From assembly GCA_903858635.1 (NCBI GenBank), contig CAIOJO010000557.1:1-54309 (forward strand): DNA of 54,309 nucleotides, in the 5' to 3' direction. The notes beneath the pieces are model-generated. The model saw nothing but the letters and a program-made list of their open reading frames with translations, had not been told where the DNA came from and did not search any database. Each line of letters starts with the position of its first letter. Within the stretch, counting starts at the first letter, position 1. Made by a program: the position numbers and the translations under genes. Below, one piece after another: positions 23,163-34,367 of the stretch. The stretch comes from an uncultured Telmatospirillum sp. (GTDB lineage: Bacteria; Pseudomonadota; Alphaproteobacteria; Rhodospirillales; Magnetospirillaceae).

Positions 23163-24137
23163 TCACAGCGGCCGGTAGCCGGTGCGGATGGTGACGCTGC
23201 CGCCGGCCACCCGCGAGACGCAGGCGCAGAGTTGCCGCCCCTCGGCCTTCTGCCCCTCGCTCAAGAACACATCGCGATGGTCCAACTCCCCCTCGCAGGC
23301 CACTACGTCGACATTGCACAGCCCGCACTCGCCGCGCCGGCAATCGGACAGCACCTCGACCCCGGCGGCGTCGAGGGCGTCCAGCATGGTCTGATTGGCC
23401 TCGACGCGGATTTCGCGGCCGAGATCGGGGACCCGGACGATGAAGGGCTGGGCCGCACGGTGACCGGAATTGCCGAAGGTCTCGAAACGCAGCCGTTCGG
23501 CCGGCCGCCCCGCCGCCCGCCAGCCGGCGAGCGCCGCTTCCAGCATCCCCATGGGGCCGCAGACATAGGCCTCGCCGTTGTCGGGCAGTGGGGCGAAGGC
23601 GGCGGCCATATCGATCAGGCCACCCTCCTCCTCGACCACCAGTTCGAGCCGGTTGCCCAGTCTGGTGGCCAGGGCGTCGCCGAAGGGAGCGTCGCTGCGG
23701 CTGCGCACCCCGTAGAGCAGGCGGAACGGCGCCTCGGCATCGGCCAGCGCCATGGCCATGGCGTGGATCGGGGTAATGCCGATGCCCCCGGCGATCAGCA
23801 GATAGGCACTGCCGCCGCCCTTCAGCGGAAAGGCGTTGCGCGGCGCCGAGACGGCGAGCGCATCGCCTTCCCGCAGGTCCCACATGAAGATCGAGCCGCC
23901 TCGGCTGTGTGGCATCCGGCGGACGGCGATGCGATAGCAACCGTCCTCGGGCCGGCCGAGCAGCGAATAGTGCCGCCGGTCCGGGCGGCCGTTGATGCAC
24001 ACTTGCACCGCGATGTGGCTGCCCGGGGTGAACGGCAGGATGCCGTCGGCGGGCAGGATTTCCAGCGAGCGCACGGTGGGCGTGAGGTCGCGGACGGCGA
24101 CCACCGTCGCCGGTTGCAGCAAGGCTTCGTCGGCCAT
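23163..24137 (-). CDS. Oxygenase reductase, vanillate O-demethylase VanB-like (FMN/NAD/2Fe-2S)
   Basis: 324 aa. Domain order: flavin-binding barrel ([11 protein letters not shown], then RRHYSLLG), NAD-binding domain ([15 protein letters not shown], then [10 protein letters not shown]), and C-terminal plant-type [2Fe-2S] ferredoxin with CRRGECGLC and a later Cys in LCACVSR. This is the one-protein reductase of class IA Rieske oxygenases such as VanAB. It passes electrons from NAD(P)H to the partner oxygenase encoded 19 bp upstream. Confidence 0.92.
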
Positions 24138-24156
24138 GGTTCGTTTCCCTCGAAGG

Positions 24157-25209
24157 TTATTCTGCGGCCAGGCGCGACCGCGGCCGCTCCGCCTCGACCA
24201 TTTGCTGGATCAGGCGCCGCGCCCACAGCGAACCGGCGTCGATGTTGAGATTGTTGAAGCCGCGATGCGGATTGCGCTCGATGCCCTTCTGCTGCGCCGC
24301 GAACATCAGTTCGTCTTCACCGAACACCCGGGTGATGGCGTCGCGGATCTCGTTGGTCAGGCGCTGTTCGCCAAGCCGATAGCCGCGGCAGAAGTTCCAG
24401 AAATAATGGGTGGTGGATTCGGTCTCGGGAGTCATCGTGTTCAGCACGAAGCCGTTGACGCCGGCACCGCGGTCACCCTCGGGCGCACCGGTGCCGACCG
24501 GGGCCACGCCGACATCGATGGTCACCGTCCCGGGTGGCTCGAAGCGGATGATCTGCCAGCGGTCCACCTTGCCCGGCTTGCCCAGTTGCGAGGCCCAGAA
24601 CGGCGGCGGATCGATGTTCTTCATCCAGCGGGTGATATAGGCGTAACGCTCGTTATGGGTCGACTCGAAGGCCGCTTCGGCGATGGCGTCATTGCCCAGG
24701 CTGGAGCCGTGGACGAAGGTCTCGTGGGTCAGGTCCATCAGGTTGTCGACCACCAGCCGGTAATTGCATTTGGCGTGGATGGTGCGGCCATCGCCGGCCC
24801 AGGCCGGATCGTCGTTCCAATGCAGGTCCGGGACCCGCGACGGGTCGGCCAGCGCCGGGTCGCCCATCCATAGCCAGATATGGCGGTGGCGCTCGACCAC
24901 CGGAAAGGAACGGACGCAGGCGGAGGGATTCAGCGTCTCCTGCGACGGCATGCGAACGCAGCGGCCATCCCCGTTGAACACCAGCCCGTGATAACCGCAG
25001 ACCACATTGTCGCCGTCCAGGCGGCCCATCGACAGCGGTGCCTGGCGGTGCCAGCAAGCATCCTCGAGGGCCGCCACGCTGCCGTCGCGGCGCCGGTACA
25101 GGACCACCGCCGTATCGCAGATGGTTCGCGCCAACAAGGTCTTGCCGATATCGGTATCCCACGCCGCCGCGTACCAGGCATTGAGGGGATAGGAGCGTGT
25201 TTCGGACAT
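24157..25209 (-). CDS. Rieske non-heme iron oxygenase, VanA/dicamba demethylase-like
   Basis: 350 aa from ATG 25209 (MSETRSYPLNAWYAAAW). The N-terminal Rieske [2Fe-2S] site is CWH...CGYHG, spanning about residues 48-70. The mononuclear iron site is DLTHETFVH with an upstream Asn/Asp pair (VVDNLMD). Size and start resemble vanillate demethylase VanA, which removes O-methyl groups from aromatic acids as formaldehyde. The actual substrate is unknown. It is first gene of the oxygenase-reductase-GntR operon. Confidence 0.9.
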   Translation of the reverse strand: MSETRSYPLNAWYAAAWDTDIGKTLLARTICDTAVVLYRRRDGSVAALEDACWHRQAPLSMGRLDGDNVVCGYHGLVFNGDGRCVRMPSQETLNPSACVRSFPVVERHRHIWLWMGDPALADPSRVPDLHWNDDPAWAGDGRTIHAKCNYRLVVDNLMDLTHETFVHGSSLGNDAIAEAAFESTHNERYAYITRWMKNIDPPPFWASQLGKPGKVDRWQIIRFEPPGTVTIDVGVAPVGTGAPEGDRGAGVNGFVLNTMTPETESTTHYFWNFCRGYRLGEQRLTNEIRDAITRVFGEDELMFAAQQKGIERNPHRGFNNLNIDAGSLWARRLIQQMVEAERPRSRLAAE

Positions 25210-25282
25210 CCATGGTCTCCCGCACAAAGTACGATTCTTGCCGGCCAGCACGGCCGTTGAGGAGAATATGGGAGCAGGGCCC

Positions 25283-25294
25283 ATTGTATACAAT
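25283..25294. promoter_or_regulatory. Palindromic operator, probable GntR site
   Basis: ATTGTATACAAT is a perfect 12-bp palindrome of the TTGTATACAA type bound by FCD-family GntR regulators. It lies 74 bp upstream of the Rieske oxygenase start, whose operon encodes such a regulator. Confidence 0.6.
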
Positions 25295-25589
25295 AGCAGG
25301 AGCATTACGCACATATCCCGCCATATGGCCGAATATGCCACATCTAATGTATCCATTCACCGCGGATTTCTAGGGGTATTCCGAGGGCTCAAGCGATCTG
25401 CCCTTTCGGCTTAGTGCTTCCGCCAGATTGACCGCCGGGCGCCGTATGGATACGAGCTAGTGGAGAGCCGTCGCGCGCTGAACCTTGAGCACAGGCGAGA
25501 ACGATGGCCGCAAGGTGACGGGGCCAAAGCCCAGGTTTAGGGAGGAAAAGATCCGAAGGATCGACCGGTCGTCGCCTGACCTCGCTGCA

Positions 25590-25619
25590 AAAAGGCCGCC
25601 CCTCGCGGGGCGGCCTTTT
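25590..25619. terminator. Bidirectional intrinsic terminator
   Basis: The stem GGCCGCCCC / GGGGCGGCC with loop TCGC is extended by flanking AAAA/TTTT pairs. T-runs follow on both strands (TTTTCCTTT on plus, TTTTTGC on minus). On the minus strand it ends transcription coming from the M24 gene at 25832. Confidence 0.85.
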
Positions 25620-25683
25620 CCTTTGGCGGTGGTGACCTGGATTTCTTAAGGGGGCGGGCGGGGAGAGCCTGTGAAATAATTGT

Positions 25684-25795
25684 TTTTCAGTGGCACCGGC
25701 GTCCCTGCCGGTGTCCGCCGTGGAGCGGCGGAAACGCTGGTCTTCCGGCTCCGCCGGAACACCGGCACGGAGGCCGGTGCCACTAACTTTTTTCA
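25684..25795. repeat. REP-like inverted pair, copy D
   Basis: A 26-base module beginning AGTGGCACCGGCGTCCC is followed, after about 60 bases of smaller hairpins, by its near-exact inverse ending GGCCGGTGCCACT. The same module occurs in copies A and B. It could fold as a long cruciform. Confidence 0.7.
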
Positions 25796-25831
25796 CAGCC
25801 TCGGGACGCCCGCCCCACTGAACGCCTTTAT

Positions 25832-27034
25832 TCAGCCGATCTCGATGAGCATTTCCGGGAAGGCGTGGAGGCGTGCGACCACCCCCTGCTCGCCGATCTG
25901 GTAGTTGTCGCAAATGGTGCTGAAGATCCCCTGCGAGACCACCGTCGGGTGGCAGGTGATGTTCATGCCCTTCTGGATCGGCATCGGTTCGTCGTTTCGC
26001 ACCAGCGGACGCTCCACCAGGTCGTAGCCTTGGCCGTGGCAGTAGAGCCTTTGTTCTTCGGCCTTGCCGTGGCTGCGCAGCAGCGCGTTATGGGCATCCC
26101 AGATGCTCTTGCACGAGGCTCCCGGGATCAACCGGTCGAGGGTGGCTTGGCGGGCCTCCAGCAGCAGGTCGAATTCGTCCTTCATCTCCTGGCTGGCCTT
26201 GCCGAACACGCAGGTGCGGCTGATCTCGGTGTAGAACCCGCCGGGTCCGTTGCTTTCGATCAGCAGGGTGAACATGTCGCCGGGTTTCAGGACGCGGTTC
26301 TGCAGATGGCGATTGCCCCAATAGGAGGGCTGTCCCGGCGTATGCGAGCAGCACAGGAACAGCCCCTGTTCGCCGCCGTGATCGAGGACGTAATGTTCGG
26401 CCACCGCGGCGATCTCGATCTCGCGCTTGCCGGGCTTCGCCGCCTTCATGGCGGCGTCCATGGCCGCATCCTGCATCAGGGCGGTGCGCCGGATATGGAC
26501 CCATTCCTCGTCGCTCTTCGGCACCTTGATCTGGTCGACCATGTCGCTGGCGTCGACGAAATTCGACTGCGACAGCTTGCCGCCCCGCAGCGCATCGACG
26601 AAGGACACCGGAAGGGTGCCCCGTCCGACCAGGCCGATGGTCTTCCCGGCATAGGGCAGAAGGGCCTGTTCGGCCAGTCCGGCATCGTATTCCAGGGTGT
26701 AATGGGCACTGACGAAATAGGGCGCGCCGAGAATCCGCTTCACGCCGCGGCGGATGCCATCGCCCTCGATCGGCAGTTGCTGATCCTCGCCGAACTTCGA
26801 CTGGATGATCACCGTCATGCGGTCGTCGCGGGGAAAGATGACGGTCCCGGGGTAGCCATGGGTGGCCGGGACATCGGTGAAATACTTCACATAGCCGCCC
26901 ATGAAGTCGTTGTTGTTCTGCATGACGAGCACATCGATCCGCCGCTCGTCCATCGCCGCACGGACGGCGGCCCAGCGCCTTTCCAGCTCGGTGGTGGCAA
27001 TCGGATGGTGCACCCGCTCGGAATGATTGGTCAT
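25832..27034 (-). CDS. Creatinase-like M24 (pita-bread) family protein, metal ligands not conserved
   Basis: 400 aa from ATG 27034, SD GGGGAGAACCG. The N-terminal creatinase domain (about 15-165, with MQNNNDFMGGYVKYFTD) is followed by the pita-bread domain. M24 dipeptidases need Asp, Asp, His, Glu, Glu for two metals. Here the positions read E260 (LLIESN), E270 (YTEISRT), H333 (CHGQGYD), H362 (NITCHPT, instead of an ITIEP-type Glu) and a changed final site near C375-D376. The metal centre is therefore probably absent or altered, as in creatinase, which hydrolyses without metal. Last gene of the six-gene molybdoenzyme operon. A peptidase label would be misleading; the substrate is unknown. Confidence 0.85.
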   Translation of the reverse strand: MTNHSERVHHPIATTELERRWAAVRAAMDERRIDVLVMQNNNDFMGGYVKYFTDVPATHGYPGTVIFPRDDRMTVIIQSKFGEDQQLPIEGDGIRRGVKRILGAPYFVSAHYTLEYDAGLAEQALLPYAGKTIGLVGRGTLPVSFVDALRGGKLSQSNFVDASDMVDQIKVPKSDEEWVHIRRTALMQDAAMDAAMKAAKPGKREIEIAAVAEHYVLDHGGEQGLFLCCSHTPGQPSYWGNRHLQNRVLKPGDMFTLLIESNGPGGFYTEISRTCVFGKASQEMKDEFDLLLEARQATLDRLIPGASCKSIWDAHNALLRSHGKAEEQRLYCHGQGYDLVERPLVRNDEPMPIQKGMNITCHPTVVSQGIFSTICDNYQIGEQGVVARLHAFPEMLIEIG

Positions 27035-27081
27035 CGGTTCTCCCCTTCTTGGGCCGGCGGCCGGCCCCACTCAAGTTGTTG

Positions 27082-28035
27082 TCAGCGCTCGACCAGATTG
27101 ACCATGGCTTGCACCTCGTCGGCCAGGAAGCAGCGCAGGTTATGCGCGATGATGGGCATCGCATCGTCAACGTAACGATTGTACATGCCGCCGGTATGGC
27201 CGGTTACCACCACGTTCTTCATCTCCCAGAACGAATGATCGGCCGGCAAAGGTTCGGCGGCGAACACATCGAGCGCCGCGCCGGCGATTTCGCTCCGGCG
27301 CAACGCCTCGATCAGAGCATCCTCGTCGACCACGCCGCCACGCGCCAGGTTGATCAGATAGCTGGACGGCTTCATGGCGGCCAGGACCTGTCGGTCGACG
27401 GTGTTTCGGGTGTCCTCGGAAAAAGGCACCAGAACCACCAGGAAATCGGCCTCGGCCGCCACCGCCAGCAATTGGTCGCGGCCCGCGACGCGGTCGAACC
27501 CGGGAAGCGGGCGCGGCGTCGAGGTAATGCCCAGCACCCGCATGCCGAGCGCCTTGCAGCGCGGCGCCAGGGCCTCGGCAATGACGCCGACGCCGAAGAT
27601 GACGACGGTGGAGCGGTCGAGCAGTCGTGACGGCCACCGTTCCCAGGCATGCCGATCGTGGGCCCGCACTGCCCGCGGCAGGTCGCGGCTCAAGGCCAGC
27701 ATGGCCGTCAGCGCGGCCTCGGACATGGCGGCGCCATGGATACCCCGCATGCCGGTGACCAACACATCGCCGCGCAGCGACGGTAGATCGCTGATGCCGT
27801 CGGTGCCGGCGCCGAGCGATTGAATCCATTTGAGGCGAGGCGCCTCCTTGACCAGGCGGTCCGAGGTCATGGTACCGAAGGTCAGCAGGATCTCGGCCGT
27901 GGCGAGGTAGGGGTCGGCCTTGCTGTGGTGGTCGACCACATTGACCACCACCTCGGGAAACAGGGTCTCGATGCTTGTCTTGTACTTGTTCCGGACCTCC
28001 GGCGCATGGGTCAGAACCAGCAGCAGTTCGGTCAT
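27082..28035 (-). CDS. D-2-hydroxyacid dehydrogenase family protein
   Basis: 317 aa from ATG 28035; a TTG two codons earlier overlaps the previous stop but is less likely. Rossmann region VVIFGVGVIAEALAPRCKALG, then the family signature LINLARGGVVDEDALIEAL with the catalytic Arg (ARGG), Glu (FAAEPLP) and His (TGHTGG). The usual GxGxxG ends in GVGVIAEA, an unusual A for the third Gly. It reduces a 2-oxoacid or oxidises a D-2-hydroxyacid with NAD(P)H. Two bases downstream of the membrane anchor gene. Confidence 0.9.
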   Translation of the reverse strand: MTELLLVLTHAPEVRNKYKTSIETLFPEVVVNVVDHHSKADPYLATAEILLTFGTMTSDRLVKEAPRLKWIQSLGAGTDGISDLPSLRGDVLVTGMRGIHGAAMSEAALTAMLALSRDLPRAVRAHDRHAWERWPSRLLDRSTVVIFGVGVIAEALAPRCKALGMRVLGITSTPRPLPGFDRVAGRDQLLAVAAEADFLVVLVPFSEDTRNTVDRQVLAAMKPSSYLINLARGGVVDEDALIEALRRSEIAGAALDVFAAEPLPADHSFWEMKNVVVTGHTGGMYNRYVDDAMPIIAHNLRCFLADEVQAMVNLVER

Positions 28036-28037
28036 CG

Positions 28038-28943
28038 TCAACCCGCCGTTTGCGGAATGCGGCGCAACGGCAGGTAGACGCCGGCCCGCACCGTCGACAG
28101 CTTGACGAAGAAGTCACCAGCCGCCGAGGCCAGCCCGATCAGGGCCATGGTGGTGGCGGAGATCGCACTCGGCAGGGCGATCAGCAGCACCGGCACCAGC
28201 AGACCGAGGGCAAGGGTACCGCCATAGAACAGCAGAGCCAGCCGGCCGGCCAGGATGTCGTGCACCGAGCGGCGCGCCGCCTGATTGCCGCCGGTCACCG
28301 CGCCGTACAGTTCGAGCCCGAAGAACAAGCAGACCAAGACGGTGATGCCCAGCCACAGTTGCAGCAGCCCATCGCCCGGCACCACGCCCGTCGCCGCCGA
28401 TATGACCAGCAATGCGGCAATGCCGCCGCGGAACGCATAGGCGATGTAGAGGGCGGGATGCAGCGGCGAATGCCAGAAAGGGATCCCCTTCGAGGCGGTA
28501 TAGCAGAACCCCATATAGCCGATGATGATCACCGTGCCGACGGCGGCCAGTCCCTGAGCGCACAGCGCCAGGACCAGCCATGGTCCGCCCAGCCCGAGAA
28601 AGCCGATGGCAAGGCACCCCCCCGAGCCGACCAGGAACAGGCTCAAGCCGACGAAGCCGCGCGAAATCCATGAGGTGCGGAAATGCCGGATCATCTTGAA
28701 GGCCCGCATCGGCTTGCCGAGGAAGGCCAGATGGACCAGCGCTCCCAGGGCGCCGAGGACGAAGGCCACCGCCAGGCCGACAGTCACATGATAGAGCGAC
28801 GACATCACCCAGGTGCCGCCAGCCACGCCGACCAGGAAATGGCCGACCACCAGCAAGATGCCCTTGCCTTCGCCCCATTCGCGCTGCGGCCGGTAGTCGC
28901 TGCGCATATCGGCGATCAGCTGATCGTATCTTTGGCTGCTCAT
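28038..28943 (-). CDS. NrfD/DmsC-like membrane anchor of molybdoenzyme
   Basis: 301 aa, about eight predicted hydrophobic helices (for example GILLVVGHFLVGVAGG, WLVLALCAQGLAAVG, LLVPVLLIALP). It resembles DmsC/PsrC-type anchors that exchange electrons between the quinone pool and an FeS subunit in the inner membrane. It follows the FeS gene by seven bases. Confidence 0.85.
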   Translation of the reverse strand: MSSQRYDQLIADMRSDYRPQREWGEGKGILLVVGHFLVGVAGGTWVMSSLYHVTVGLAVAFVLGALGALVHLAFLGKPMRAFKMIRHFRTSWISRGFVGLSLFLVGSGGCLAIGFLGLGGPWLVLALCAQGLAAVGTVIIIGYMGFCYTASKGIPFWHSPLHPALYIAYAFRGGIAALLVISAATGVVPGDGLLQLWLGITVLVCLFFGLELYGAVTGGNQAARRSVHDILAGRLALLFYGGTLALGLLVPVLLIALPSAISATTMALIGLASAAGDFFVKLSTVRAGVYLPLRRIPQTAG

Positions 28944-28950
28944 ATTCGCC

Positions 28951-29556
28951 TCACGGTGCCAGGTAATAGACGTTGGGGCTGGTCCCGGCTTCCGGATGCA
29001 GGGTGAACCCGCCGCGGTCCTTGATCAGGCGGGACACAGTGCTGTTGGGATCATCGAGATCGCCGAACGTGCGCGCCGTGGTCGGGCAATTGGCCACGCA
29101 GGCCGGCAGTTTGCCTTCGGCCAGGCGGGGCGTGCAGAAATTGCATTTCATCACCACCCCGGTGTCGTGCCGGGCGCTGCGCGCCAGCTCGTAGGGGGTG
29201 GGGCCGGCGTCGCCGAAATACCAGTTCCGCTCGGCGTTGAAATAACGGTTGTTGTACGGGCAGGCCATCATGCAGGCGCGGCAGCCGACGCATTTGTCAT
29301 GGTCGATGTCGACGATCCCGCCCTCGCAGTAATGGCTGGCCTCGGTCGGGCAGACATCGACGCAGGGCGCGTCGGTGCAGTGGTTGCACAGCACCGGCAG
29401 GAACATCTGGCGCACCGAGGGATACTTGCCTTCCTCGTGCTTCAGCAGGCGAGCGAAGAAGACGCCCGGCGGCGTGCCATGTTCGGCTTTGCAGGACAGT
29501 TGGCAGCCGTAGCAGCCGATGCATCGTTTGAGGTCGATCACCATCCCCAGTCTCAT
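28951..29556 (-). CDS. Four-cluster [4Fe-4S] electron-transfer subunit, DmsB-like
   Basis: 201 aa from ATG 29556. Four cysteine groups, as in DmsB/PsrB/NrfC: CIGCYGCQLSC, CNHCTDAPCVDVCP, CVGCRACMMACP, and CNFCTPRLAEGKLPACVANCP. No Tat or Sec signal. The ATG overlaps the catalytic-subunit stop (ATGA), so the two are coupled. It relays electrons between the molybdenum subunit and the NrfD-like anchor. Confidence 0.93.
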   Translation of the reverse strand: MRLGMVIDLKRCIGCYGCQLSCKAEHGTPPGVFFARLLKHEEGKYPSVRQMFLPVLCNHCTDAPCVDVCPTEASHYCEGGIVDIDHDKCVGCRACMMACPYNNRYFNAERNWYFGDAGPTPYELARSARHDTGVVMKCNFCTPRLAEGKLPACVANCPTTARTFGDLDDPNSTVSRLIKDRGGFTLHPEAGTSPNVYYLAP

Positions 29557-32150
29557 GGCTTGGCCCCCAGCTTGGTCACCTTGACCTTGACGCAGAGATC
29601 GAGGTTCTGGTTGACCGGACTCGAATGGTCCCAGTCGACTTCCAGCAGTTCGTTGAAGAAGACGCCCTTGCCCTTGGCGATCGGCATACCGTCGCCCCAA
29701 TGCCCGGCCAGGGCGGCGATCCCCAGACCTTCGGGATGAATGGCCTCGGTCAGGCACAGCCGGCCCGTCACCTTGCGGCCGCCTTCGGTCTCGATATCGA
29801 CCACATCGCCATGCGCCAGACCGCGGGACAGCGCGGTGTCCTTGTGGATGGCCACCGTATAGGAATAGGGGTCGAGCCTGGCCGCTTCGTCCAGCCAGGG
29901 ATTTTCCATGGTGAAGCTGTTGGTGTGGATGATGTCGCGATAATAGAAGGCGAAATAGTCGAAGCCCTTATGCTCGCATTGGTGCGACGGACAGGGCAGG
30001 AAGTCGGGCAAGGGTTCGTAGTATTCGCGCGGGATGGAAACCCCGCGCGGCTCGGCGATGGCGGCGATCTTGTCGCCCGCCACCTTGAGGAATTCCCAAT
30101 AGATCGGCACCCGCACGTCTTCGAAGGCGCGCCAATAGACCTCTTCCGGTTTCTTCGGCCATTTGATGACGCCGTGCTGCTTGAACCAGTCGAGCCCCCG
30201 CTCGGCGCCGAAATTGCACTTCAGTTCGGCATCGCAGACCTCGTCCCAGCTGTAGCGGCGATCGGGGGCCAGGCGATAGGGCGGGGCCAGGTTGATCGAG
30301 GCGTTCAGCGCCGCATTGAAGTCGGGGGTCATGCCGATCCGCTCGGCCAGGTCCAGCAGGACCTCGCTGTGGCGCCGTTGCTCGCCCTGCGGCTGGTCGG
30401 CCGGCTGGCGAATCGACCAGCACCATTCCCCCATGCCGCCCGGCAGGTTGAAGATGAACGGAAAGTTCGAGCGCGAATCGGTCGACTGCAAATAGTCGCA
30501 GTCGGGCAGGACGATATCGCAGAAGTCGGAGAACTCGGTCAGGTACAGGTCGATCGAGGCGATGAACTTGTACTTCTTCAGCGACTCGGCGACGGTCTGG
30601 CTGGTGCCGACGCTCATCATGATGTTGCAGCCGAAATTGAGCAGCGCCTCGGGCCGATAGGGAACCGAGAAGGTCTGCCACAGTTCTTCCTGGTCGCTCG
30701 AGGTGAGGAAGGGCGAAGTCATTCCCATGACGAACAGATCCTGCAGCCCGAGATTGGTCGGCAGCCGCGGCTCGGCGATCGGATAAGGGTAGTGGTAGCC
30801 CATCCACATGCCGGTCACCATCAGCCCGTCCGGCCCAGCCTTCGGCACATAGCGCAGACGCCCGGTTTCGGGGAAGCCGTGGCTGGCCGGATTGAAACCG
30901 AGACAGCTGCCGGCCACGTCGGCGGCGCCGACCATTTGGTTCAGCAGGTCGACCGCCAGGAAGTTGTAGACCGAATTCATATGCCCCTGGGCGCCGCGGA
31001 AGGCGATGGCGGCGACCGGCCGATACGGCACGGTCACGCCGTCGATCACGATGGTGCTGCCGACCCGCGCCTCGCGGCCGAATTCACCGCCCAAGCGACG
31101 GATATCGGCGGCAGGAACGGTGGTGATCTTCTCGGCCTGTTCCGGCGTGAACTTGCGCAGATGCTCCTTCAGAATGACAAAGGAGGGACGGCAAGGCACG
31201 CCATCGACCTGATAATTGCCCTCCAAGGCCATGTCTTCCGCCGGCACCGCCGTGTAGGGAAGCGCCACGCCCTTCTTTTCGTCCCACACCAGCGGCTCCT
31301 TGGTCGCCGGATCGCGCAGGTAAAGCTGATCGGGACCGATCAGATAGGGACCGTTGGTCTTGGCCTTCAGATAAGGGGCATCGAAGATCCCCAACTCGTT
31401 GACCATCACATTGCACATGGCGAGCGCCAGCGCCGCGTCGGTGCCGACCCGCAAAGGCACCCACTCGGTGGCCTTGGCGGCGGCGAAGTTGCACATCGGG
31501 TCGACCACCACCATGCGCATGCCGCGGGCCCGGGCGTCGGCCGCCAGCCCCATGTTGGAGCAGGATGCGTGGCCGGCCGAATGGCCCTTCGAGGCGCCGA
31601 AATAGACGGCGTAATTGCAGTATTCGAAGTCGGGAACCACCGACCACGAGGCATGCATGATGCCGCTGATCAGATGAGCGCCGTTGCCGCAGTGCAAGCC
31701 ACCCCCGGCCACCGAGAAGTTGGGCGTGCCGAAACCGGCCGAAAAGGCCTGGAAGGGAACCCGGCTGGCGGTGACGGTGGTGGTGCGCATCACCGTCAGT
31801 TTGCGCGGATCCTCGTCGCGAATCCGCTTCAGCTCGCGGGCGACAGTGTCCAGGGCCTCGTCCCACGAGATTTCCTTCCACCCCGGATCGACGCCGATGC
31901 CCTTCACCGGGTTGGTGCGCTTCAAGGGTTTGGTCAGCCGATGCGGGTCGTAATGGGTCATGATGCCGCTGACCCCCTTGCCGCACAGCTTACCCTTGCC
32001 GACCACGCTGTCCGGATTGCCCTCGATCTTGATCACCGTGCCGTCGACCCGGTGGGCGAGAATCGAACAGGTGCCGTAGCAAAGGGCGCAGGACGAAGCG
32101 AGCCACGCATCGTCGGCGGCCGCAGCCGGCTTTTTCTTCAGCAAGCTCAT
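29553..32150 (-). CDS. Molybdopterin oxidoreductase, DMSO-reductase superfamily catalytic subunit
   Basis: 865 aa. The N-terminal [4Fe-4S] site is C21-x2-C24-x3-C28...C56 (CALCYGTC, KLCGKG). The bis-MGD core follows (WKEISWDEALD near 91, VVVDPMCNFAAAKATEWVPL near 215, and LVVGT-equivalent LRVGTDAALALAM), with the C-terminal cap near 750-865. Cys154 in GGLHCGNGAH sits where PsrA/PhsA-like enzymes place the Mo-ligating Cys (inference). The first 20 residues (MSLLKKKPAAAADDAW) have no twin-Arg motif, so the enzyme probably works on the cytoplasmic side, unlike DmsA. It has an FeS cluster, which the transhydroxylase large subunit lacks. Substrate unknown. SD GAGGAG; follows the MoaD-like gene by 12 bp. 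Confidence 0.92.
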   Translation of the reverse strand: MSLLKKKPAAAADDAWLASSCALCYGTCSILAHRVDGTVIKIEGNPDSVVGKGKLCGKGVSGIMTHYDPHRLTKPLKRTNPVKGIGVDPGWKEISWDEALDTVARELKRIRDEDPRKLTVMRTTTVTASRVPFQAFSAGFGTPNFSVAGGGLHCGNGAHLISGIMHASWSVVPDFEYCNYAVYFGASKGHSAGHASCSNMGLAADARARGMRMVVVDPMCNFAAAKATEWVPLRVGTDAALALAMCNVMVNELGIFDAPYLKAKTNGPYLIGPDQLYLRDPATKEPLVWDEKKGVALPYTAVPAEDMALEGNYQVDGVPCRPSFVILKEHLRKFTPEQAEKITTVPAADIRRLGGEFGREARVGSTIVIDGVTVPYRPVAAIAFRGAQGHMNSVYNFLAVDLLNQMVGAADVAGSCLGFNPASHGFPETGRLRYVPKAGPDGLMVTGMWMGYHYPYPIAEPRLPTNLGLQDLFVMGMTSPFLTSSDQEELWQTFSVPYRPEALLNFGCNIMMSVGTSQTVAESLKKYKFIASIDLYLTEFSDFCDIVLPDCDYLQSTDSRSNFPFIFNLPGGMGEWCWSIRQPADQPQGEQRRHSEVLLDLAERIGMTPDFNAALNASINLAPPYRLAPDRRYSWDEVCDAELKCNFGAERGLDWFKQHGVIKWPKKPEEVYWRAFEDVRVPIYWEFLKVAGDKIAAIAEPRGVSIPREYYEPLPDFLPCPSHQCEHKGFDYFAFYYRDIIHTNSFTMENPWLDEAARLDPYSYTVAIHKDTALSRGLAHGDVVDIETEGGRKVTGRLCLTEAIHPEGLGIAALAGHWGDGMPIAKGKGVFFNELLEVDWDHSSPVNQNLDLCVKVKVTKLGAKP

Positions 32151-32162
32151 CGTTTTAGCTCC

Positions 32163-32594
32163 TCAGCCGCCTTCCGACGACGTTAGTACGATCAGTTCAA
32201 GGTTCCGGGGGCCACGAGCGGGATCGATGATGTCGTCGACCTCCACCGGGAAGCCGTCCAGGAATAGCCTGCAACAGCCGTAGATCTGGCCGTTGTCCTG
32301 CATCACCAGTTCGCGGAAAGCGGGGCCGAAGCGCTCGACCATCATGGCCATCAGGCTGCGCAAACTGGTGGGGGCATCGAGGGGAACGGTAAAGCTGCGG
32401 CAGGCGGCCACCGGAGCCAGTCCGCCGAACAGCCAGACCTTCAGCAGCGGCGGGCCGTCGGCGTCCATCTCGTCGAGCGGCGGCGGCTCGACGATCGCCG
32501 CCTGGGCAGGCGGCACCGATGCCCGACCGTCGCGGCGGGAACGCCACAAGACGGCAAGCCGGTGCGCCAATCGTGGCGCCCATGCAGCGATCAT
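32163..32594 (-). CDS. MoaD/ThiS-like ubiquitin-fold sulfur carrier with N-terminal extension
   Basis: 143 aa from ATG 32594, chosen because the SD AAGGGAGG lies just upstream; an ATG at 32621 lies inside an operator and has no SD. Residues 51-143 form the beta-grasp fold (LKVWLFGGLA, FRELVMQDNG, LFLDGFPVEVDDIID) and end in the free di-glycine SSEGG, the feature adenylated and thiocarboxylated in MoaD, ThiS and relatives. The first 50 residues are basic then Pro/acid-rich and not found in ordinary MoaD (about 80 aa). First gene of the molybdoenzyme operon, it may supply sulfur for a dedicated molybdopterin. Confidence 0.75.
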   Translation of the reverse strand: MIAAWAPRLAHRLAVLWRSRRDGRASVPPAQAAIVEPPPLDEMDADGPPLLKVWLFGGLAPVAACRSFTVPLDAPTSLRSLMAMMVERFGPAFRELVMQDNGQIYGCCRLFLDGFPVEVDDIIDPARGPRNLELIVLTSSEGG

Positions 32595-32612
32595 CCGCTC
32601 AACCTCCCTTAT

Positions 32613-32629
32613 GTTCAACATTATTGAAC
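32613..32629. promoter_or_regulatory. 17-bp palindromic operator, proximal copy
   Basis: GTTCAA-CATTA-TTGAAC, perfect six-base arms. Its centre is about 27 bp before the MoaD-like start. The reverse complement recurs exactly at 32779-32795. Confidence 0.65.
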
Positions 32630-32778
32630 TTATTTTTTATTATTGTACTGACTTGCCCCTTGCGAAACAAGGGCATTCGATCGGGATCTGGCCGGGATCC
32701 GAACAAAATCTGTCATTGTGAAGGGGAGGCTACCCGCTCTACCCCGGAATGTCCCTGGCCACAATTTTCCGGCTTGTA

Positions 32779-32801
32779 GTTCAATAATGTTGAACATGTT
32801 C
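32779..32801. promoter_or_regulatory. 17-bp palindromic operator, distal copy, plus overlapping GAACATGTTC
   Basis: GTTCAA-TAATG-TTGAAC at 32779-32795 is the exact reverse complement of the proximal copy. Its right arm overlaps a perfect 10-bp palindrome, GAACATGTTC, at 32792-32801. Two sites 166 bp apart allow looping by a dimeric/tetrameric regulator; the IclR protein encoded at 33594-34367 is the nearest candidate. Confidence 0.6.
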
Positions 32802-33593: not shown

Positions 33594-34367
33594 TCAGCCG
33601 TGCCAACCAAGCCGGCGCGACAACTCTTGTGAGACCCGCTTCAATTCCTGGACGTTCATGCCCTCAGGCCGGCCCACGATGGTCACGGCCGCCTTCAATT
33701 GGCCCTCGTGGTCGAACACCGGAGCCGACACGGCGACAAAATTGGGAATGCTCACCACATGGCCGTGCGCCACGCCGGCCAGCCGAATATCGATGATCAT
33801 CTGCTCGAGCTCGAAATCGGCGGGAAGACTGTCCCCCGCGTCCGCACTGGCCGCTCCCAGCACCGCCATCCATTTCTCGCGCGGGAGATAAGCCAGGAAG
33901 ATGCGCCCGGTCGCCGTCCCCAAGAGGCTCATCACCGATCCGATTCGCACCTCATAGACCGAGTCGCGACGCCCCTCGATCGTCGCGACGACGATCGCCC
34001 CCTTTTCGCTCCACACCGACAGCACCACGGTCTCACCGACCGCCTGGCTGAGTTCGGCCAGGGCGTTACGGGCCAGTTTGAGGAAATCCACCCGGGTCAG
34101 GGCCACCAGGCCCAATTGCAGGGCGGTTTCGCCGAGATCGTAAAGGCCGGTCGCGCCGTCTTGGCTGACCAAGCCGGTACGCAGCAGGCTGACCAGATAG
34201 CCATGCGCCATGCTGCGCGGCATGCCGACCTTGGCGGCGATGTCGACCAGGCGCAAGGCGCCGTCGGCGGCGACCAGGGCCTGCAGGATATGCCCGGCCT
34301 TCTCGACCGACTTGATGCCGGCGCCGGCGGGCGGTTGGCCGGTGCGGCGGTTGGTCCTAACGTTCAT
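33594..34367 (-). CDS. IclR-family transcriptional regulator
   Basis: 257 aa. The N-terminal winged HTH spans about residues 18-80 (IKSVEKAGHILQALVAADGALRLVDIAAKVGMPRSMAHGYL). The IclR effector domain has LSVWSEKGAIVVATIEG, TATGRIFLAYLP, and a C-terminal AAVTIVGRPE. It lies 60 bp downstream of tctA on the same strand. It may control the Tct transporter and/or the molybdoenzyme operon, whose palindromes are nearby (inference). Confidence 0.92.
   Translation of the reverse strand: MNVRTNRRTGQPPAGAGIKSVEKAGHILQALVAADGALRLVDIAAKVGMPRSMAHGYLVSLLRTGLVSQDGATGLYDLGETALQLGLVALTRVDFLKLARNALAELSQAVGETVVLSVWSEKGAIVVATIEGRRDSVYEVRIGSVMSLLGTATGRIFLAYLPREKWMAVLGAASADAGDSLPADFELEQMIIDIRLAGVAHGHVVSIPNFVAVSAPVFDHEGQLKAAVTIVGRPEGMNVQELKRVSQELSRRLGWHG

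Follow-up and report, generated by a model that had tools for sequence, protein, structure and literature searches.

The 54,309-nucleotide contig CAIOJO010000557.1 of an uncultured Telmatospirillum sp. (assembly GCA_903858635.1; hereafter the window) carries six adjacent genes on the minus strand at positions 25832-32594. They encode a MoaD-like small carrier, a molybdenum (Mo) catalytic subunit, an iron-sulfur (FeS) subunit, an NrfD-type membrane anchor, a D-2-hydroxyacid dehydrogenase family protein and an M24 protein. The first four genes are the core of an uncharacterised clade of apparently cytosol-facing, quinone-linked enzymes. On sequence comparison, the dehydrogenase-M24 pair is a module independent of this core, and the six-gene arrangement is a local fusion of the two modules among the loci examined. 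The Mo core is conserved and, as far as our searches show, uncharacterised, but it is not a new category of enzyme. A literature search found no publication on this operon, which is not proof that none exists.

The initial annotation had described six open, co-directional ORFs with gaps of -4 to 47 bp, and ORF reading, translation and Pfam searches bore this out (Table 1). From the MoaD-like gene to the M24 gene, the successive gaps are 12, -4, 7, about 2 and 47 bp. The catalytic, FeS, anchor, dehydrogenase and M24 proteins each matched Pfam above the respective cut-off, and none of the operon proteins reached the cut-off of a named-enzyme NCBIfam model. The carrier gene probably starts at the ATG at 32594, which is preceded at 8 nt by a GGAGG sequence, rather than at 32621, where the longer ORF begins.

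No twin-arginine (Tat) motif was detected by pattern scan in the catalytic or FeS subunit, and only 20 residues precede the first cluster cysteine of the catalytic subunit. The same scan found the motif in 0 of 22 clade rows (L055 has a misplaced start). The anchor exceeds the PF03916 cut-off and shows eight hydrophobic segments in a hydropathy scan, in agreement with the NrfD assignment made at the outset. As the initial annotation had proposed from the missing signal, the active site of the Mo complex probably faces the cytosol, judging from these sequence features. Cys154 of the catalytic subunit is conserved, at the place where we would expect the metal ligand.

Forty-six loci were hand-picked as non-redundant, and 45 of them gave a called catalytic gene of at least 54% identity and hence neighbours; the one in L184 escaped the gene caller. 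The counts below refer to 43 catalytic genes of at least 600 aa, shorter ones being left out; for 33 of the 43, the flanks are long enough on either side to judge the neighbours. Twenty-three have a MoaD-like gene directly upstream, 15 have an FeS gene and 16 an NrfD gene downstream, and all four core parts follow in order in 13. L176 has two tandem catalytic genes, each with its own carrier. Since many catalytic genes lack adjoining FeS or anchor genes, a single membrane module may serve several copies.

No Pfam or NCBIfam model matched the small carrier at E 0.001. Its AlphaFold model (mean pLDDT 76; at least 90 in 71 of 152 residues; alignment of 7 sequences) matched SAMP1 (3po0, E 9.3e-7) and MoaD (1fm0, E 1.3e-4) in Foldseek. 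According to this model, the protein has the MoaD/SAMP1 beta-grasp fold. The earlier idea of a private MoaD is in keeping with this match and with the 23 upstream carriers. Among the latter, counted on the set found by homology alone, 18 end with Gly-Gly, like that of the window, and 5 with Ala-Gly. The carrier would serve the maturation of this single catalytic enzyme. Because MoaD-like maturation genes also occur in the tungsten-enzyme operon aorABCDE, according to an excerpt of the report (PMC6365974), tungsten is a live option here.

A catalytic match of at least 55% identity is present in 12 of 297 genomes sampled from the order of the window, its own included; in the order of Aromatoleum toluclasticum, 3 of 399 genomes pass E 1e-200, that strain among them. 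The best 80 matches include Rhodospirillaceae, groundwater Betaproteobacteria, Deltaproteobacteria, Tectomicrobia and others. The betaproteobacterium behind L079 has nine catalytic matches of at least 63% identity (four partial), and the genome behind L073 has seven of at least 68% (four partial, and one interrupted by two in-frame stops). Some of the partial matches lie at contig ends and could be fragments of a single gene. Three copies were found in a Tectomicrobia genome and two, at 71% identity, in A. toluclasticum MF63 (L159/L160). Close relatives were also sought on plasmids, where 326 records matched, every one below 60% identity. Four sampled genomes of the same genus gave no catalytic-subunit match above 33% identity. 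The window is one whole contig, and the estimated contamination of its source genome is 3.57%. The contig may be a recent transfer or a stray contig.

Phylogenetic place and known relatives

Two maximum-likelihood trees were built with short searches and SH-aLRT support only: one of 71 rows under LG, and one of 64 rows under the LG+C20 mixture, for which ten rows were removed, three were added and L055 was trimmed at its misplaced start. The references include one PhsA and a SoeA assigned by context, and do not include characterised RhL, DbhL, ArrA, bSreA or catechol dehydroxylase. L128 (Enteroscipio), considered as a catechol dehydroxylase reference, was dropped, its best solved matches being PsrA and ArrA. 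The target clade had 22 rows with a support of 95 in the first tree, and 18 to 19 rows with supports of 99 and 94 in the second. It is nested in a wider uncharacterised group, of 42 rows (support 99) in the second tree. The PadB of A. toluclasticum (L158), a five-row lineage, the context-assigned SoeA (L229) and Escherichia coli PhsA lie outside the clade; with supports of 90 to 95 for the deepest outside branches and several long rows in the tree, the exact places of these branches are unsure. L158 PadB groups with L069, from the window's own genome, and others, apart from the target clade. Within the five-row lineage, PadG/H/I genes adjoin L116 and L068 only, and none was found in the stretches covered for L119, L124 and L169. 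The initial annotation had named the pathway a candidate undescribed one, and by sequence the catalytic subunit falls in no clade of known substrate among the references used.

In the Protein Data Bank (PDB), sequence search gave polysulfide/thiosulfate reductase at 135 bits, arsenate reductase at 112 and acetylene hydratase at 88; by predicted fold, arsenate reductase ranked first and acetylene hydratase tenth. PsrABC, PhsABC and ArrAB are exported and act on inorganic substrates. They are the nearest solved structures and have a similar FeS subunit, but the window complex has no export motif and PhsA is outside the clade in both trees. The statement in the initial annotation that Dms/Psr-type enzymes are usually exported overlooks the cytosolic SoeA and bSreA (PMC10100899) and PadBCD (PMC5109826), as given in excerpts of both papers.

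The top PDB matches, by both sequence and fold, would suit a redox enzyme for sulfur or metalloid oxyanions (SoeABC-, PsrABC- or ArrAB-like) whose catabolic surroundings are incidental. In the accessible part of a superfamily survey, SoeABC and bSreA are, as predicted for the window complex, cytosol-facing with three subunits and a Cys ligand; SoeA and bSreA are cytoplasmic, and their lineage is called a substantial, unappreciated radiation (PMC10100899). Neither PadB nor phenylacetyl turned up when its main text was searched. However, PhsA and the context-assigned SoeA are outside the clade (deep-branch support 90-91), and the annotated anchor of L229 is of the DmsC type, beside xsc. No sulfur gene appeared among the annotated recurrent neighbour clusters, about half of the 23 clusters lacking a family annotation. 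Furthermore, up to nine clade matches per genome (four partial) suit substrate diversification. We consider an oxyanion enzyme very improbable.

PadBCD, the phenylacetyl-coenzyme A (CoA):acceptor oxidoreductase of Thauera and Aromatoleum, consists like the window complex of a Mo catalytic subunit, an FeS subunit and a membrane anchor. In an excerpt of its description, the Pad pathway comprises PadJ, PadBCD and PadEFGHI, and PadBCD acts on a CoA ester (PMC5109826). Its cytosolic CoA-ester substrate, and neighbouring genes that handle the 2-oxo acid, are the likeness to the enzyme that we propose for the window. Pattern and hydropathy scans showed this likeness in the missing Tat signal, the FeS subunit and the membrane anchor. 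In contrast, the anchor of L158 was not matched by the NrfD protein of the window at E 1e-5, and the upstream-carrier scan found no MoaD-like gene upstream of L158 PadB. L158 is surrounded by PadE-, PadG-, PadH- and PadJ-like genes and a PadI above the NCBIfam cut-off. That the catalytic subunit is itself PadB was ruled out by the tree and by its 30-33% identity to L158 PadB.

AorABCDE, a tungsten aldehyde oxidoreductase, belongs to another catalytic family than the window's enzyme. It differs in its FAD subunit, in NAD as the acceptor and in the absence of an NrfD anchor; the likeness is that of MoaD-like maturation genes accompanying a Mo/W enzyme of aromatic catabolism (PMC6365974, in part).

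The dehydrogenase-M24 pair

A close M24 relative was found in 19 of the 297 genomes, own included. In 14 of the 18 other genomes, the M24 gene directly follows the dehydrogenase gene on the same strand, which is also the arrangement in the window. The stretches around these 14 pairs, some of them on short contigs, contain no gene labelled as a clade Mo gene. All six genes in order occur in the window only (1 of 43). The view of the six genes as one conserved operon was therefore abandoned.

The initial annotation would have been contradicted by a lack of co-conservation between the pair and the Mo enzyme, and on this point the evidence divides. The pair is independent of the core. Across the order sample, the two modules share a genome more often than expected: the pair is present in 6 of the 12 genomes with a clade gene and in 9 of the other 285 (Fisher p 4e-6, without correction for kinship). 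Within one family (19 genomes among the matches listed), 5 have both, 2 the Mo module only and 8 the pair only, and these counts give no support for an association of the pair with the Mo clade.

A chance union of two modules on a transferred segment, in which the dehydrogenase and M24 protein have no tie to the Mo enzyme, would account for the pairs without a clade Mo gene, the single six-gene order, the lack of a close catalytic relative in the same-genus genomes and the within-family counts. However, the gaps in the window are just 2 and 47 bp, and the co-occurrence across the order speaks for a link. In the betaproteobacterial L079/L167, moreover, about 4 kb separates the M24 gene (cut by the contig end) and a dehydrogenase gene from the catalytic gene downstream of them, so that both modules share the L167 contig; TctC-type and SDR-like genes lie in between, and a thiamine-diphosphate enzyme follows the catalytic gene. 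In L205 (genome G204), the pair lies about 1 kb downstream, on the same strand, of a pyrogallol-hydroxytransferase-type Mo gene (935.9 bits against 4v4c) and an FeS gene, and thus follows another Mo enzyme. We judge chance joining to be unlikely.

The second-best solved-structure match of the dehydrogenase is phenylpyruvate reductase. Besides its PF02826 domain, the protein holds ARG, AEPLP and GHTGG stretches, which we take to carry the catalytic Arg, Glu and His of D-isomer 2-hydroxyacid dehydrogenases. In the M24 protein, compared with the canonical D-D-H-E-E residues, which we assume to be the ligands of the prolidase site, the His is kept, the second Asp is replaced by Glu and the first Glu by His, and the others are lost. 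Since most metal ligands are replaced and the altered pattern is itself conserved across the pair family, its sequence suggests that the M24 protein is probably not a metallopeptidase.

Genomic neighbours and the proposed reaction

Within 8 kb of the clade loci, TctC-type binding proteins were found at 11 loci, IclR at 10, UbiD at 10, Amidohydro_2 at 6, AMP-ligases at 5, HpaB at 4, and LigB and aldehyde dehydrogenase at 3 each, the Pfam names being taken from one representative per cluster. Thiamine-diphosphate enzymes occur at 6 loci by cluster and at 8 by a wider search of the stretches. These neighbours agree with the catabolic context first described.

Enrichment was calculated on the 38 loci, out of 46, for whose genomes whole-genome counts had been made. 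Five loci (L044, L055, L108, L167 and L183) have a same-strand thiamine-diphosphate gene at no more than 3 kb, against 0.44 expected, and UbiD genes occur within 1 kb of 6 clade genes against 0.98 expected. The p-values (9e-5 and 5e-4, respectively) are optimistic because the families and distances were picked after inspection. UbiD genes number 5 to 59 in 17 of 19 genomes and 2 in the remaining two. Since they are so numerous, UbiD within 8 kb was weakened as evidence, and only close adjacency was retained. Very large UbiD families are present in G303 (59 matches), G301 (41), G189 (28) and G138 (25).

In the wider group, 2-oxo-acid oxidoreductase genes lie beside the Mo genes of L158, L116, L068 and L069. 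PadI exceeded the NCBIfam cut-off in L158 and L116, and PadG and PadH in L116; the partners in L068 and L069 were assigned by identity. Inside the clade, L176 has a PadG-like match (41% over 355 aa) next to its tandem Mo genes. The UbiD and thiamine-diphosphate neighbours suggest a pathway that breaks down activated, probably aromatic, acids by way of a 2-oxo acid.

We tentatively propose, with appreciable doubt, that the Mo complex of the six-gene region works like PadBCD, on activated acids, giving a 2-oxo acid. The four upstream genes would produce a membrane-bound, cytosol-facing Mo- or W-bis(pyranopterin guanine dinucleotide) (bisPGD) dehydrogenase/hydroxylase. It would oxidise the carbon next to the activated carbonyl of a probably aromatic or related acid, perhaps a CoA ester, with water as the oxygen source. 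The FeS subunit would relay the electrons to the quinone pool at the NrfD anchor; the 2-oxo acid would be handed to whichever module adjoins the Mo enzyme. In several relatives this would be a thiamine-diphosphate enzyme; in the window, an NAD(P)-linked 2-hydroxyacid dehydrogenase may act first, and the M24 protein may then serve as a hydrolase or lyase that works without the customary dinuclear metal site. Gene content, predicted folds, the lack of a Tat motif, conservation and neighbours are what the sequences show; the type of reaction, its substrate, the succession of steps, the direction in which electrons flow and the metal are inferred.

A 2-oxo acid product would bring the 2-oxo-acid oxidoreductases, the thiamine-diphosphate enzymes and the window's 2-hydroxyacid dehydrogenase under one scheme. 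The clade also lies in the same wide group as PadB in both trees, with PhsA outside. Several points weigh against a PadBCD-like enzyme. L158 PadB is only 30-33% identical and outside the clade, and the own genome has another pad-type cluster (L069). PadE/G/H/I/J were not matched in the window at E 1e-20, and the operon has no CoA ligase. Thiamine-diphosphate genes are missing from most loci (8 have one in the stretch), and the enrichment families and distances were chosen post hoc.

In addition, neighbours such as UbiD, HpaB and LigB would fit equally well with an enzyme that hydroxylates or dehydroxylates the ring of phenolic acids, as resorcinol hydroxylase, pyrogallol transhydroxylase or catechol dehydroxylase do; decarboxylation and ring cleavage would then fall to UbiD, HpaB, LigB and amidohydrolase. 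UbiD lies within 1 kb in 7 loci, and L041, L044, L047 and L053 have clusters of HpaB, LigB and amidohydrolase genes. Pyrogallol-phloroglucinol transhydroxylase acts on phenols, and its relative in G204 precedes the same pair in the order of the window. However, this enzyme has no NrfD anchor and is distant from the clade in both trees (L205 reference). Acetylene hydratase, reported as nearest to the catechol dehydroxylases in an excerpt of PMC7028382, ranks below polysulfide/thiosulfate and arsenate reductases in the PDB search, and ring chemistry leaves the 2-oxo-acid enzymes unexplained. We regard it as rather unlikely.

An organic-substrate reductase of anaerobic respiration, passing electrons from quinol to an organic acceptor, appears quite improbable: the superfamily architecture, as we understand it, runs in both directions, but the neighbours include oxygenase-type genes, both in the window (Rieske-like) and in relatives (HpaB, LigB), and the context suggests no acceptor.

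With somewhat less than even confidence, we further consider that a large family of cytosol-facing, quinone-linked Mo/W enzymes, many with their own carrier and several apparently sharing one anchor per genome, may be a swappable platform for oxygen-independent alpha-oxidation or hydroxylation in mostly uncultured, UbiD-rich bacteria; the window copy would be coupled to a hydroxyacid dehydrogenase and an M24 class that has left metallopeptidase chemistry. If so, quinone-coupled, water-dependent oxidation of organic acids would be widespread in bacteria that also carry oxygenase-type genes. The family would provide a setting for a MoaD-like carrier tied to single catalytic subunits and for a conserved M24 protein that is probably no metallopeptidase. 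The two copies in the cultured A. toluclasticum MF63 make the substrate question directly testable.

Surroundings of the operon and side loci

Table 1. Coordinates of the six genes and other features in the window
Feature	Positions	Strand	Remarks	Basis
MoaD/SAMP1-fold small carrier (predicted)	32163..32594	-	C-terminal Gly-Gly; longer ORF to 32621	translation, AlphaFold, Foldseek
Mo/W-bisPGD catalytic subunit, 865 aa	29553..32150	-	PF00384/PF04879/PF01568; cluster cysteines 21/24/28/56	
FeS electron-transfer subunit	28951..29556	-	Fer4 families; ArrB/DsrO/TtrB-like below equivalog cut-offs; no signal motif	
NrfD-type membrane anchor	28038..28943	-	PF03916; eight hydrophobic segments	
D-2-hydroxyacid dehydrogenase family protein	27082..28041	-	PF02826; ATG present at 28035	
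M24 (creatinase/prolidase fold) protein	25832..27034	-	PF00557; most canonical metallopeptidase ligands absent	
GTTCAA-N5-TTGAAC palindrome, candidate operator, copy 1	32613..32629			motif scan
GTTCAA-N5-TTGAAC palindrome, candidate operator, copy 2	32779..32795			motif scan
IclR-family regulator	33594..34367	-	PcaR/PcaU/PobR model 88.9 bits, below cut-off 284.75	
Rieske oxygenase-like and reductase-like genes	23163..25356	-	NCBIfam matches all below cut-off	

The two palindromes compare with 0.07 copies expected in the window. Each lies in a perfect 20-bp inverted arm (32611-32630 and 32778-32797), the arms being 147 nt apart and just upstream of the operon. An operator common to the clade was rejected: with up to 1 mismatch, the motif was found nowhere but in the window across 738 kb of clade loci. 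A link of the IclR regulator to the operon is conceivable. The Rieske-like and reductase-like genes are probably a separate unit, and their link to the operon is likewise conjectural. Between the M24 and the Rieske-like gene (25500-25830), inverted-repeat-like sequence was seen by eye, suggesting a separate transcription unit.

Two further loci belong to the window's own genome. L069 (contig C84) has two divergent Mo genes, one of which is followed by PadD-, PadE-, PadG- and PadH-like genes; it is probably the genome's own phenylacetate pad cluster. In L068 (contig C512, 247-17409), a single stretch combines XDH-type Mo hydroxylase genes and a cyclase-family gene with genes for a PadBCD-like Mo complex and with PadI/H/G/E-like genes. 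Its cyclase-family gene is 66% identical to that of L116, and L119 and L124 are comparable in part. L068 is a candidate for an anaerobic indole route through indole, oxindole, isatin, isatinate and anthraniloyl-CoA; oxindole, isatin and anthranilate have been reported in anoxic indole degradation, according to an excerpt of PMC6221969.

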